DNA of 25,333 nucleotides from a virus. Where the stretch lies: positions 1 to 25,333 of the IMG/VR virus record IMGVR_UViG_3300043436_000717; one strand, given 5' to 3'. The notes beneath the pieces are model-generated. The model searched no databases, was not told where the DNA came from, and was given only the letters and a program-made list of their open reading frames with translations. A program made the translations under genes and the position numbers. Shown here in pieces: positions 8 through 5,801 of the stretch (the stretch's first letter is position 1; every line of letters starts with the position of its first letter).

Positions 8-37
8 TTTTTTATTAAAAAATGTTTTATACATTTG
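8..37 (+). promoter_or_regulatory. Bacteroidetes-type promoter for a small RNA
   Basis: TACATTTG at 30-37 matches the Bacteroidetes -7 element TAnnTTTG. A T-rich run at 8-11 sits 18 bases upstream, where the -33 TTTG is expected, but it is TTTT and so only a partial match. Transcription would start near 41-44, exactly at the foot of a hairpin, and a terminator follows about 85 bases later. No coding frame follows directly, so the site most likely drives a non-coding RNA. Confidence 0.55.
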
Positions 38-40
38 TCC

Positions 41-131
41 TGTCGAACTCGTACTTCGATATCTAGTTAAGCATTATATCATGGTAGATATATAGAACCC
101 TAGCTGAGTACGAGACGGCTGGGGTTTTTTT
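41..131 (+). ncRNA. Predicted small RNA with matching hairpin loops
   Basis: Three hairpins can be drawn between the promoter-like site and the T-run. Hairpin 1 pairs 41-47 with 55-61 (one G-U) around the 7-base loop CTCGTAC at 48-54. Hairpin 2 pairs TATATC at 75-80 with GATATA at 87-92. Hairpin 3 is the terminator at 96-126. The terminator loop contains GTACGAG (108-114), the exact complement of the hairpin 1 loop, so the RNA could form an intramolecular kissing complex or dimerise. No open frame of useful length exists on this strand. The role is unknown; copy control, an antisense decoy or a regulator of the host or phage programme are only guesses. The RNA itself is a prediction from sequence. 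Confidence 0.5.
96..131 (+). terminator. Rho-independent terminator
   Basis: AACCCTAGC (96-104) pairs with GCTGGGGTT (118-126) as nine base pairs including one G-U, followed by an unbroken T run ending at 131. This is a textbook intrinsic terminator shape with a 13-base loop. It ends the predicted small RNA and would insulate the downstream genes. Confidence 0.7.
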
Positions 132-413
132 ATGCCCTATTACATACGGGTGTTGTATACCATTGAACATCTTTAACAAAAACAATGTCTCACAATGAAC
201 GCTTGTTCGATAAATAAAATCTCGCTCTGTCTGAACGCTTGACAACGAGTACTGCATACCGAAAGGTAAAAGAACAAGTGAACCAAGAAGCCTATAATAA
301 ATAGATAAGGTCGCAGAGGGAAGTGTCATTGGTGGGAGTATCTCTATTCAAGTAAGAGATTTAAGTGCTGTGTGGTATATGCAGTATAAAAGCGAAGCTA
401 TAAACAAGAGAGT
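132..413 (+). other. Gene-free leader with a foldable domain
   Basis: No convincing gene lies here; the longest frame I see after an A-rich leader (ATG at 185) is ten codons. A long-range helix pairs 250-260 with 374-386 (eleven pairs, two-base bulge at 379-380). Inside it are TACC-GAAA-GGTA at 257-268, a GNRA-loop alternative to the outer helix, and ATCTCT/AGAGAT at 340-345 and 355-360. TGAACGCTTG occurs twice (196-205 and 232-241). The domain ends 27 bases before the start of the methyltransferase-like gene, so it could be a structured 5' leader or a second small RNA. I see no promoter of the TAnnTTTG type within it. Confidence 0.35.
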
Positions 414-3348: not shown

Positions 3349-3830
3349 TGATTGATATCTTTAAAGAAGATAGCAATGGAATGGTTATAGCCTTGGATAA
3401 TTTATCTAAGGCTAACCTTTCTAATATAGCTAACGAAATTGTAAAAACCTCTGTTGACGGAGGATATGAAGACCCAATTGAAGCTTACGTTAAAGCTAAG
3501 GGTATTGCAGAAATTGCTGATCAAATCATGAGCGGACTTAAGCATTATGCTATCAAGGATGCGTATAAGTTTGATAAAGATCAGAAAGTATTAGGTTGCT
3601 CAGTTGTTGTTAAGAACACACCTACTACCTATGACTACTCCCATAACGATGAATGGTCTGAGATAAATAACCAAATCGCACAGCTTAAGGAACGTCAGAA
3701 AGAAATCGAGAAGCAGATGATTCAGGCTATGTCAGTTGCCCAGTTGATCGATAACGATGGCGTAGTAGTTGAGCCTGCTATTGTGAAGAAAGAAGGATCA
3801 GAGACAATACAAATCACAATACCTAAATAA
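3348..3830 (+). CDS. Hypothetical partner of the annealing protein
   Basis: A 160-residue protein joined to the Rad52-like gene by a TAATG overlap. The N-terminal half is helical. The middle carries a TYDYSHNDEWSEINNQIAQL segment leading into a Lys/Glu-rich coiled coil (about 105-128), and the end is a short beta-type tail (IQITIPK). The YDYS..W-plus-coiled-coil arrangement is common in proteins next to phage single-strand annealing genes, and I recall similar proteins of unknown function there. A role in recombination is inferred from position only. Confidence 0.65.
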   Translation: MIDIFKEDSNGMVIALDNLSKANLSNIANEIVKTSVDGGYEDPIEAYVKAKGIAEIADQIMSGLKHYAIKDAYKFDKDQKVLGCSVVVKNTPTTYDYSHNDEWSEINNQIAQLKERQKEIEKQMIQAMSVAQLIDNDGVVVEPAIVKKEGSETIQITIPK

Positions 3831-3849
3831 CCTTTAAACAACAAGAACA

Positions 3850-4026
3850 ATGATTAAATTTTATATGGTAATAACATTAGCAATAGTACAATTTATTGTG
3901 TGTAGTTCATTAATTCTTATTTATAGAAAGAGTAAAGAACCAAAACACGAAGGAATAGTATTTGGTTCTGTATTTGGAGTTGGGCTATCTTTTGCCTATG
4001 TAATTGAAGCATTTGGAAACCTTTAA
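3850..4026 (+). CDS. 58-residue two-span membrane protein
   Basis: The first gene of the repeat-led array, preceded by a perfect repeat copy. It has two hydrophobic segments, residues 5-25 (YMVITLAIVQFIVCSSLILIY, trimmed ends) and about 36-55 (GIVFGSVFGVGLSFAYVIEA), joined by a basic RKSKEPKH loop. A small inner-membrane protein is likely. Its stop codon TAA lies inside the next repeat copy. I do not recognise the family. Early phage membrane proteins of this size often act in superinfection exclusion, but nothing here proves that. Confidence 0.65.
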   Translation: MIKFYMVITLAIVQFIVCSSLILIYRKSKEPKHEGIVFGSVFGVGLSFAYVIEAFGNL

Positions 4027-4038
4027 ACAACAAGAACA

Positions 4039-4233
4039 ATGAAGAAACAAACTTGGATTGACACTTATCTCGGTAGATTTAAGTGGTATAGAAAATTAAG
4101 AAAAGGAACTTGGTATAAACGTTCATTTAATGATAATGCTTACCAATTAAGGTTGAAATCTTACTCTAATTATTGGACAAGATATGGTGGGAGAAGTAGT
4201 TATTGTGAAGTAATAGAAATAGAAAACATTTAA
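4039..4233 (+). CDS. Small Trp/Tyr-rich protein, paralogue of 4908-5126
   Basis: A 64-residue basic protein beginning MKKQTWIDTYLG. It lines up with the protein at 4908-5126 through TWID..LG..WYR..R.G.WY and a W-R-Y pattern near the middle, so the two are paralogues. It is rich in Trp, Tyr and Arg and probably forms a small beta-sheet fold. The preceding leader is a perfect repeat copy and the gene stops at the TAA within the next (variant) copy. Function unknown. Confidence 0.65.
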   Translation: MKKQTWIDTYLGRFKWYRKLRKGTWYKRSFNDNAYQLRLKSYSNYWTRYGGRSSYCEVIEIENI

Positions 4234-4245
4234 ACAACAATACCA

Positions 4246-4425
4246 ATGAAAGAAGGTTTTATAGCAGGTGCTAAATGTCAACAAAAGAAAATGTTTACTG
4301 AAGAACAATTAGCAATAGCTATGTTAGATTTCGGTTTATATATTGCTGAAAATAGAGGTAAACCAATTGACACTGATAATAAAATAGAAGAAATTATTGA
4401 ACAACTTAAACAACAAGAACAATGA
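4246..4425 (+). CDS. 59-residue hypothetical protein with KQQEQ tail
   Basis: Preceded by the variant leader copy (CAACAATACCAATG). The protein starts MKEGFIAGAKCQQKK, has an amphipathic helix (EEQLAIAMLDFGLYIAENRG) and ends in EEIIEQLKQQEQ. The last five residues are encoded by the next repeat copy, and the stop is the TGA of an ATGA overlap with the following start. The family is not recognised; it may be a small helical protein of the kind common in Bacteroidetes phages. Confidence 0.6.
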   Translation: MKEGFIAGAKCQQKKMFTEEQLAIAMLDFGLYIAENRGKPIDTDNKIEEIIEQLKQQEQ

Positions 4426-4640
4426 AAACAGCAGTAGAATGGTTTTATGATGAAATCAAACACATTTTACCCAATGACTATGTAAAGAAGTATGAACAAG
4501 CAAAAGATATTGAAATGAAACATCTTGCACAAGCATTTGAAGATGGTGAGCACAACTACTTCTACTCCAAAAAGACGGGAGAAGATTTTGAGAGTGGTGT
4601 TGAATATTACAATGAGAAATTTAAACAACAAGAACAATGA
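4422..4640 (+). CDS. Small phage protein of the 'TAVEW' type
   Basis: 72 residues: MKTAVEWFYDEIKHIL, then YEQAKDIEMKH and a C-terminal EYYNEKF before the repeat-encoded KQQEQ. This TAVEW...QAKxxE...YYNE arrangement is a recurring small-protein family in Bacteroidetes phages and mobile elements, of unknown function. Two relatives are in this window (4637-4933 and 11292-11486). The ATGA overlaps at both ends imply translational coupling along the array. Confidence 0.7.
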   Translation: MKTAVEWFYDEIKHILPNDYVKKYEQAKDIEMKHLAQAFEDGEHNYFYSKKTGEDFESGVEYYNEKFKQQEQ

Positions 4641-4933
4641 AAAACAATAAACAACAGACGGCAGTGGACATTATTTATCAAGGGATTAGTGATAAAATAG
4701 TTATGCAAGATTTGAACAAAGCATTAATTTGTATTCATATTTCACACGACGATTTCCTTAAACTACATAAACAAGCCAAAGAAATGGAGAAGGAGCAGAT
4801 GAAAGAAATGGAATTCTTGAAATTTCAACGTGACGTATACATTAAAGACATTGAAATACTAAAAGCACGGCTAAGAGAGGCTGAGCAAAACCTAAACAAC
4901 AAGAACAATGAAACAAAAACACACTTGGATTGA
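4637..4933 (+). CDS. Coiled-coil relative of the 'TAVEW' family
   Basis: 98 residues. An N-terminal TAVDIIYQGI and a central LHKQAKEMEKEQMKEMEFLK relate it to the protein at 4422-4640. The region from about residue 48 to 90 is Lys/Glu/Leu-rich and should form a coiled coil. Uniquely in the array, it reads through the next repeat copy in the third frame (NNKNN) and ends 26 bases inside the following gene. This shows that the repeat is not kept for its coding content. Confidence 0.65.
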   Translation: MKNNKQQTAVDIIYQGISDKIVMQDLNKALICIHISHDDFLKLHKQAKEMEKEQMKEMEFLKFQRDVYIKDIEILKARLREAEQNLNNKNNETKTHLD

Positions 4934-5126
4934 TTCGTGTTTAGGTAATTATGATTGGTATAGACAAATAAGAGGTGGAGTTTGGTATCAGCACGTTTAT
5001 ACTGATGATTCTATTGAATTAAAATTAAATACCCACCAATTTTTTTGGGCAAGATATTTTCAAGATGATAAAAATCTTACAATCGTCTCATTTATAGAAA
5101 CATATACTAAACAACAAGAACAATGA
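4908..5126 (+). CDS. Small Trp/Tyr-rich protein, paralogue of 4039-4233
   Basis: 72 residues beginning MKQKHTWIDSCLGNYDWYRQ. It shares TWID..LG..WYR..R.G.WY and the later W-A/T-R-Y motif with the protein at 4039-4233, indicating a duplicated cassette that has since diverged. It has the KQQEQ tail from the repeat, where its paralogue instead stops at the repeat's TAA, so the two copies meet the repeat in different frames. Function unknown. Confidence 0.65.
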   Translation: MKQKHTWIDSCLGNYDWYRQIRGGVWYQHVYTDDSIELKLNTHQFFWARYFQDDKNLTIVSFIETYTKQQEQ

Positions 5127-5344
5127 AAGAAGAAATTGTAAGAGAATCAGGAGTTGACTCATATGTAGTTGACTTTGGAAAGAATGGTCAAGGAATCACT
5201 AATGAGTTAGTCCTTATTGGCAAACGCATAGAAGATTTGAGTGAATATTATAATGTGTATATGAGCAGCGATAGCTTCATTGATGCAGCAGATGATGTTT
5301 ACACTTTGAAATTTATCTTATCACCTAAACAACAAGAACAATGA
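5123..5344 (+). CDS. 73-residue acidic hypothetical protein
   Basis: MKEEIVRESGVDSYVV is followed by ELVLIGKRIEDLSEYYNVYM and an acidic region (SDSFIDAADDVYTLKF) before the repeat-encoded KQQEQ. The acidity could suit a DNA mimic or a small protein-binding protein, but that is speculation. It begins and ends in ATGA overlaps carried by the leader repeat. No family recognised. Confidence 0.6.
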   Translation: MKEEIVRESGVDSYVVDFGKNGQGITNELVLIGKRIEDLSEYYNVYMSSDSFIDAADDVYTLKFILSPKQQEQ

Positions 5345-5598
5345 GTTTAAGTAAAAAGAAATTAGCAGAATTAGAAACTAAAATAGGGGAGGTATTTAAG
5401 ATTAGTACAGACCCAAGTCCTGAAAATTTTGTTATTCTTGATAAAATCATTCCATCTATCAAGTCAGGTGCTTGGAACTCTAGTGAATCAGTTTCATTAT
5501 TGTTTTGTGAAAAAGACGGAACAAGAATAGGTACAGGAAGCACAAGTATGACAACAACTCTATTTTATAAAAAATACTTTAACCAACAAGAACAATGA
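5341..5598 (+). CDS. 85-residue hypothetical protein
   Basis: MSLSKKKLAELETKIGEVF forms a probable N-terminal helix, followed by a mixed region with SESVSLLFCEKDGTRIG, which looks like a beta hairpin. The end is NQQEQ, encoded by the last, slightly altered repeat copy. The gene overlaps its neighbours by ATGA at both ends. No family recognised. Confidence 0.6.
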   Translation: MSLSKKKLAELETKIGEVFKISTDPSPENFVILDKIIPSIKSGAWNSSESVSLLFCEKDGTRIGTGSTSMTTTLFYKKYFNQQEQ

Positions 5599-5801
5599 AA
5601 CAAATAACAAAATCAGTAATTAAGCTATCGGAGATTCCCGAGCATTTACAAAAAGACGAAATCCTACAAGGACACAAAGTGCATACATACGCAGAGTTCC
5701 ACATTGATGACTCCGAACAAGATGAGTTGACCTTGTGGCTATTGAGTCAGTACCCTACATTAAAACGAAAGACAAGTTTTTTAATACATATAGACCTATG
5801 A
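5595..5801 (+). CDS. 68-residue hypothetical protein, last of the array
   Basis: The ninth and last gene led by the repeat. The protein starts MKQITKSVIKLSEIPEHLQ and has an acidic middle (HIDDSEQDELTLWLL). It ends without the QQEQ tail because no repeat copy follows; the stop is in an ATGA overlap with the next gene at 5798. Family not recognised. Confidence 0.55.
   Translation: MKQITKSVIKLSEIPEHLQKDEILQGHKVHTYAEFHIDDSEQDELTLWLLSQYPTLKRKTSFLIHIDL

Follow-up and report, generated by a model that had tools for sequence, protein, structure and literature searches.

Covarying loops of a 5′ hairpin and an intrinsic terminator in a putative leader RNA of uncultured phages

The window examined here is the whole of a 25,333-base contig from an uncultured virus, a tailed phage judging by its gene content (a DNA methyltransferase-like protein, an Erf/Rad52-like annealing protein, a DnaB-like helicase and a Holliday-junction resolvase). 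Near its start, two hairpin loops on the same strand are exact complements of each other, and one of them is the loop of a terminator. This raises the question of whether the two loops are selected to pair and, if so, what their pairing would do for the phage.

Architecture of the element and its promoter

The first-pass annotation had described, at 30-131 on the + strand, a promoter-like sequence, a hairpin with loop CTCGTAC, a second hairpin and a terminator carrying GTACGAG, and both the sequence and the coordinates are as it gave them. The 5′ hairpin (HP1, 41-61) begins a few bases from the expected start site and pairs TGTCGAA with TTCGATA, seven pairs in all, around the loop CTCGTAC (48-54); in relatives its stem is swapped for other complementary stems (GTGTCTA/TAGACAC, ACTAA/TTAGT, ATCTAA/TTAGAT and ATCATT/AATGAT). 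The middle hairpin (HP2, 75-92) has the stem TATATC/GATATA and the loop ATGGTA, and is invariant within the close family, with other hairpins standing in for it in distant members. The third hairpin (HP3, 94-128) has the arms AGAACCCTAGCTG and CGGCTGGGGTTTT around the loop AGTACGAGA, which counts 13 bases, or 9 if two extra pairs are included (105-106 with 116-117). HP3 is G+C-rich and followed by a T-run (125-131), so that 94-131 has the form of an intrinsic (Rho-independent) terminator; most homologues retain the T-run, the exceptions being the marine members L139 and L142. The segment GTACGAG lies in the HP3 loop at 108-114, and the seven perfect pairs claimed between it and 48-54 are all present. 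On the window's + strand, each of the two heptamers is present a single time. A longer anti-terminator helix suggested by folding 38-140 fits the close family, and by inspection is not kept consistently in distant members.

The promoter region (6-37, + strand) consists of a conserved AT-rich upstream stretch and a -7 element, TACATTTG, at 30-37, with a weak -33 element. TAnnTTTG is the published -7 consensus of the Bacteroidota housekeeping sigma factor, sigma-ABfr (PMC7366714), and it is found in 32/32 compiled homologues, the distant copies among them having been chosen partly by this same motif. These promoter elements suggest a Bacteroidota host for the window phage. Window bases 6-39 (ATTTTTTTATTAAAAAATGTTTTATACATTTG) nearly match the DNA 5′ of an ORF in the Tenacibaculum phages PTm1 and PTm5, and are nearly identical in one further viral contig as well (matches at L083:1501-1535, L084:1501-1534 and, on the - strand, L082:3467-3490); the kissing element was not seen at any of these sites. 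In the phage collection this promoter stretch was the only credible match of the window element, and two other copies of the cassette had no match there.

Homologues and covariation of the two loops

Starting from the methyltransferase-like neighbour protein, the non-coding region was recovered in three close relatives, and in L003, one of the three, the two loops have changed together, from CTCGTAC/GTACGAG to TCCACAC/GTGTGGA. Many further homologues came from a pattern search with the HP2 sequence and from alignment of the Erf/Rad52-like protein; the viral contigs behind the loci are labelled G001-G023. Distant copies from one scan were picked by promoter and terminator alone, with complementarity not a criterion, and four matches of that scan (L151, L153, L154 and L161) are not of the element type. 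The marine copies L139, L142 and L144 came from a scan for complementarity and are therefore biased toward it. A scan with the terminator pattern CCCTAG..CTAGGG yielded L271 as its one new copy, most of the hits being unrelated terminators.

When 14 relatives are aligned, every one of the seven loop-loop pairs shows changes in both partners, and 91.3% of the cells in these pairs are paired, a figure that includes one copy misplaced by the aligner (L271) and one that is genuinely mismatched (L104); for the HP3 stem the value is 99.4%. The structure as a whole has a covariation score of 0.308, compared with 0.177 for shuffles, of which 0/500 reach 0.308, and with the partner slid the score over the 14 relatives is at most 0.083. 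For 17 alleles, the 5′ segment was matched against terminator loops: the longest complementary run measures 7-12 nt in cognate combinations (mean 8.5) and averages 4.7 nt in non-cognate ones, and the sum of the cognate matches was reached by 0/20,000 permutations.

An out-of-sample set was obtained by searching viral contigs for the core TACTGCATACCGAAAGGT of the type-1 RNA, a structured RNA found downstream of the element (see below), and then reading the sequence upstream of it. The promoter, HP1 and a terminator with a complementary loop were present in 14/14 new loci with enough sequence, eight of which were also checked by script and the others by reading the upstream sequence. All five new alleles among them are complementary (GTCAGAA/TTCTGAC, GTCGCA/TGCGAC, GTCAAG/CTTGAC, GTTCAGG/CCTGAAC and TGCAGGT/GCCTGCA, the last with one G-U pair), and the close relatives L304 and L305 differ by three compensated changes. 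The first-pass annotation had staked its case on homologues in which the two loops co-vary behind a kept promoter element, and this is what the homologues look like.

Could complementarity of this length simply arise by chance in an ordinary terminator? As a control, a complement of the loop was sought within 100 nt upstream of 123 terminators with loops of at least 6 nt in the relatives' contigs. A complement of at least 7 nt was found for 14 element copies and also for 7 of about 109 other, unrelated terminators, which speaks for chance, but at a length of at least 8 nt there were 10 element copies and none of the roughly 109 others. Together with the pair count in the 14 sequences, the cognate/non-cognate test and the independent loci, this control excludes chance complementarity, and we consider that explanation refuted. 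Complementarity kept by compensating changes, the mark of a kissing-loop RNA, is found in 7/7 pairs and 14/14 independent loci, and on this covariation we conclude that the contact between HP1 and the terminator loop is under selection.

Leader context, proposed mechanism and rival readings

The small RNA had also been said to lie alone in a gene-free stretch. A promoter-driven RNA with a selected loop contact agrees with our results, but it is not alone, as a conserved structured RNA follows at about 150-400. Judged from the aligned loci, a longer, conserved leader cassette has the element as its 5′ end. In relatives a same-strand upstream gene ends 13-63 nt before the element; the window contig begins at the element itself, which hides this gene. 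Most members have their next ORF 270-410 nt after the element. In the window, the first gene 3′ of the leader is the DNA-methyltransferase-like gene (PHROG 757) at 414-1070 on the + strand. A scan for TAnnTTTG between the terminator and the first ORF found none in any member with a readable gap, the window included. With no recognisable promoter between the element and the first gene, the terminator is placed in an operon leader, between promoter and operon, as far as this motif can tell; other promoter types are possible there. Farther along the contig, at 3825-5603, a gene-junction motif, about TTTAAACAACAAGAACAATGA, recurs as a translation-start module at the starts of some eight small ORFs in a row, several of them with KQQEQ as their last residues.

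The RNA directly 3′ of the element and in the same orientation, which we call type 1 (about 150-405 in the window, + strand), has a predicted long-range closing helix with internal hairpins, and 13/57 of its predicted pairs have two-sided changes (alignment of 8 and consensus fold). Its invariant cores are ACTGCATACCGAAAGGT, GCAGAGGGAAGT and TATGCAGTATAA, and it includes a GAAA tetraloop hairpin. Carriers are the window (150-405), L002, L003, L085, L094, L132, L133, L136, L138 and L290-L307. It accompanies the element in a second phage group too, to which most of the out-of-sample loci belong and in which the cassette lies 5′ of terminase genes; from this position, the cassette appears to behave as a portable operon leader. 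In other relatives (L092, L104, L131, L143, L146, L137 and L271) the place of type 1 is taken, as by an interchangeable module, by a type-2 conserved structured RNA, ..ACTCAACGGAAGTAAGT..GGTGAT..GGGGGAGGGGG..ATCACC..TCTAACAAAAGTAAGT, about 30-290 nt after the terminator. Pairing of the HP2 loop ATGGTA with a TACCAT of the type-1 RNA was considered and dropped by inspection, because members with the type-2 RNA keep ATGGTA and L133, L138 and others have no match. In L145, 2 nt separate the terminator from the start of an ORF, and in the marine copies L139, L142 and L144 an ORF begins 11-17 nt past the hairpin. An exact second copy of the HP1 segment stands directly before the ATG in L139 and L144 (AACACGACA and CATCTCAC, each followed by ATG), with an approximate one in L142, which would give the HP3 loop two possible partners. 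A third loop copy at the start codon for every allele was rejected as a general rule, being true just for L139 and L144 and approximate for L142.

At gathering score, Rfam 15 gave no family at the element or elsewhere in the window, only tRNAs in eight relative loci, and no match for the type-1 or type-2 RNA; relaxed thresholds gave nothing credible, the best weak matches being PyrR (22.1 bits, cut-off 54) and NsiR1 (18.9, cut-off 39), which reflect the terminator alone. In genomes of 84,980 bacterial and archaeal species, one genome each, the Rad52-like neighbour had no match and the exact core of the type-1 RNA was absent. E-values and counts given here cover the named collections. Our literature search found nothing specific on terminator-loop kissing in phages. 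From the comparisons above, the element would be a real RNA switch heading phage operons and apparently an undescribed one, an RNA class without an Rfam entry whose carriers here are all uncultured phages, probably of Bacteroidota. Its loop contact with its own terminator shows unusually clear covariation, and the cassette brings with it a second, larger and likewise undescribed structured RNA.

Several readings of what the contact does come into question. We favour, tentatively and with a little under half of our confidence, an attenuator in which the kissing loops make read-through into phage operons conditional. The order of parts is that of an operon leader: the promoter, three hairpins ending in the intrinsic terminator, a second structured RNA and then the genes. 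HP1 would fold first, and as the polymerase makes HP3 the two loops would pair. The contact would then set the share of RNA polymerase stopping at the T-run versus reading on into the structured RNA and the operon, which is what would make the element an attenuator, its set point being given by whether or not the loops meet in time. RNAs that end at the terminator would be about 90 nt long, would carry both loops and could act back on new transcripts. In the marine relatives the HP3 loop can also pair with the HP1 copy directly before the start codon, which would provide translational control. We infer transcription, termination, the effect of the contact on read-through and action in trans from the sequence. 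Since other promoter types are possible between terminator and genes, the T-run could be an ordinary unconditional stop; L139 and L142 keep complementarity without a good T-run, so termination control would not be the whole story; and both the unpaired loops of L104 and the inconsistent retention of the longer anti-terminator helix in distant members count against the attenuator.

The main rival, rather unlikely in our view, is a stand-alone phage sRNA of about 90 nt acting in trans, in which the cis kiss compacts the fold (5′ end in a hairpin, 3′ end in the terminator) and protects the RNA or hides the seed until a target competes for the loop. A promoter and a strong terminator do flank the element, and the start of HP1 is a few bases from where transcription is expected to begin, as such an RNA would have it. 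The window clade has no third loop copy beside a start codon, so that there is no obvious target; the element always precedes a structured leader RNA or an ORF, and a seed with fixed targets would not usually change as quickly as these loop alleles do. Another reading has the loops pairing between molecules, HP1 of one RNA to HP3 of the next, to form dimers, chains or rings, since an RNA with two complementary loops can pair in trans. Low sequence conservation with kept complementarity recalls phi29-type packaging RNA, and the cassette precedes terminase genes in one phage group, but most members do not adjoin packaging genes, neither an Rfam pRNA match nor a pRNA-like 5′/3′ end helix was found, and the linker of about 24-46 nt in most members also permits pairing in cis; we rank this third and hold it to be improbable. 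Read as DNA, the loop segments form an inverted repeat with arms of 6-12 bp spaced about 60 bp from each other, and they vary between phages as operators do; they might be the half-sites of a phage-specific repressor or the ends of an invertible segment. The arms always lie within RNA hairpin loops, the order with promoter and T-run is fixed, and the HP1 stems are swapped for other complementary stems, which a DNA site does not need; this stem covariation leaves very little to be said for a DNA-level reading.

Whichever reading holds, the loop alleles do not track relatedness. In the Rad52-like gene, identity is 96.8% between G002 and G003 and 98.8% between G004 and G005, yet the two members of each couple carry different loop pairs; the window and G003, at 90.9% identity in this gene, have a common loop pair. 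L104 (938-1041) is 99.66% identical to L092 over 7.3 kb, and yet five of the seven loop-1 bases differ, which is how its loops come to be mismatched; it may be a half-swap or an assembly chimera. By these comparisons, the turnover of loop alleles outpaces that of the remaining genome, a situation like that of plasmid incompatibility groups, and such compensated turnover at 97-99% neighbour-gene identity needs diversifying selection or allele exchange as its explanation. It also makes recognition in trans possible. In plasmid antisense RNAs, loop mutations create new specificities, that is, new incompatibility groups (PMC4485353). From this analogy and the allele turnover, the loops might be a specificity code, an idea we consider unlikely: terminated RNAs from one phage genome would kiss the nascent leaders of other copies within the same cell, provided that the alleles match, and the switch would thereby sense copy number or co-infection. 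Phages would be selected to differ from their competitors in the loop pair, amounting to an RNA incompatibility or superinfection system that two self-matching loops of a single transcript would encode.

Comparison with known systems

Two hairpin loops of one RNA also kiss in cis in the purine riboswitch (L2-L3). There the loops are conserved, as the ligand core depends on them, whereas those of the element vary freely and one belongs to a terminator. In phi29-type pRNA, one phage RNA carries two mutually complementary loops and its structure is kept as the sequence diverges. The element differs in having no match to the Rfam covariance models and no end-closing helix, in ending with an intrinsic terminator, and in not generally being adjacent to packaging genes.

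Some plasmid antisense RNAs act by attenuation, and in ColE1 RNAI/RNAII, R1 CopA/CopT and pIP501 RNAIII complementary hairpin loops start RNA-RNA pairing, as the loops of the element may do. In the plasmid systems the loops are on the sense and antisense transcripts of one locus, whereas here the loop sites are about 60 nt apart on the same strand and within one predicted transcript, so the element needs no antisense gene. The put RNA of HK022 is a short hairpin RNA that follows a phage promoter in an early-operon leader and needs no phage protein (PMC9378689), and the element is likewise a short hairpin RNA behind a phage promoter in a leader. The put RNA has two stem-loops, lacks an internal terminator, and works by binding RNA polymerase and suppressing termination at distant terminators; the element, in contrast, carries its terminator within it, and the partner of its first loop is the loop of that very terminator.
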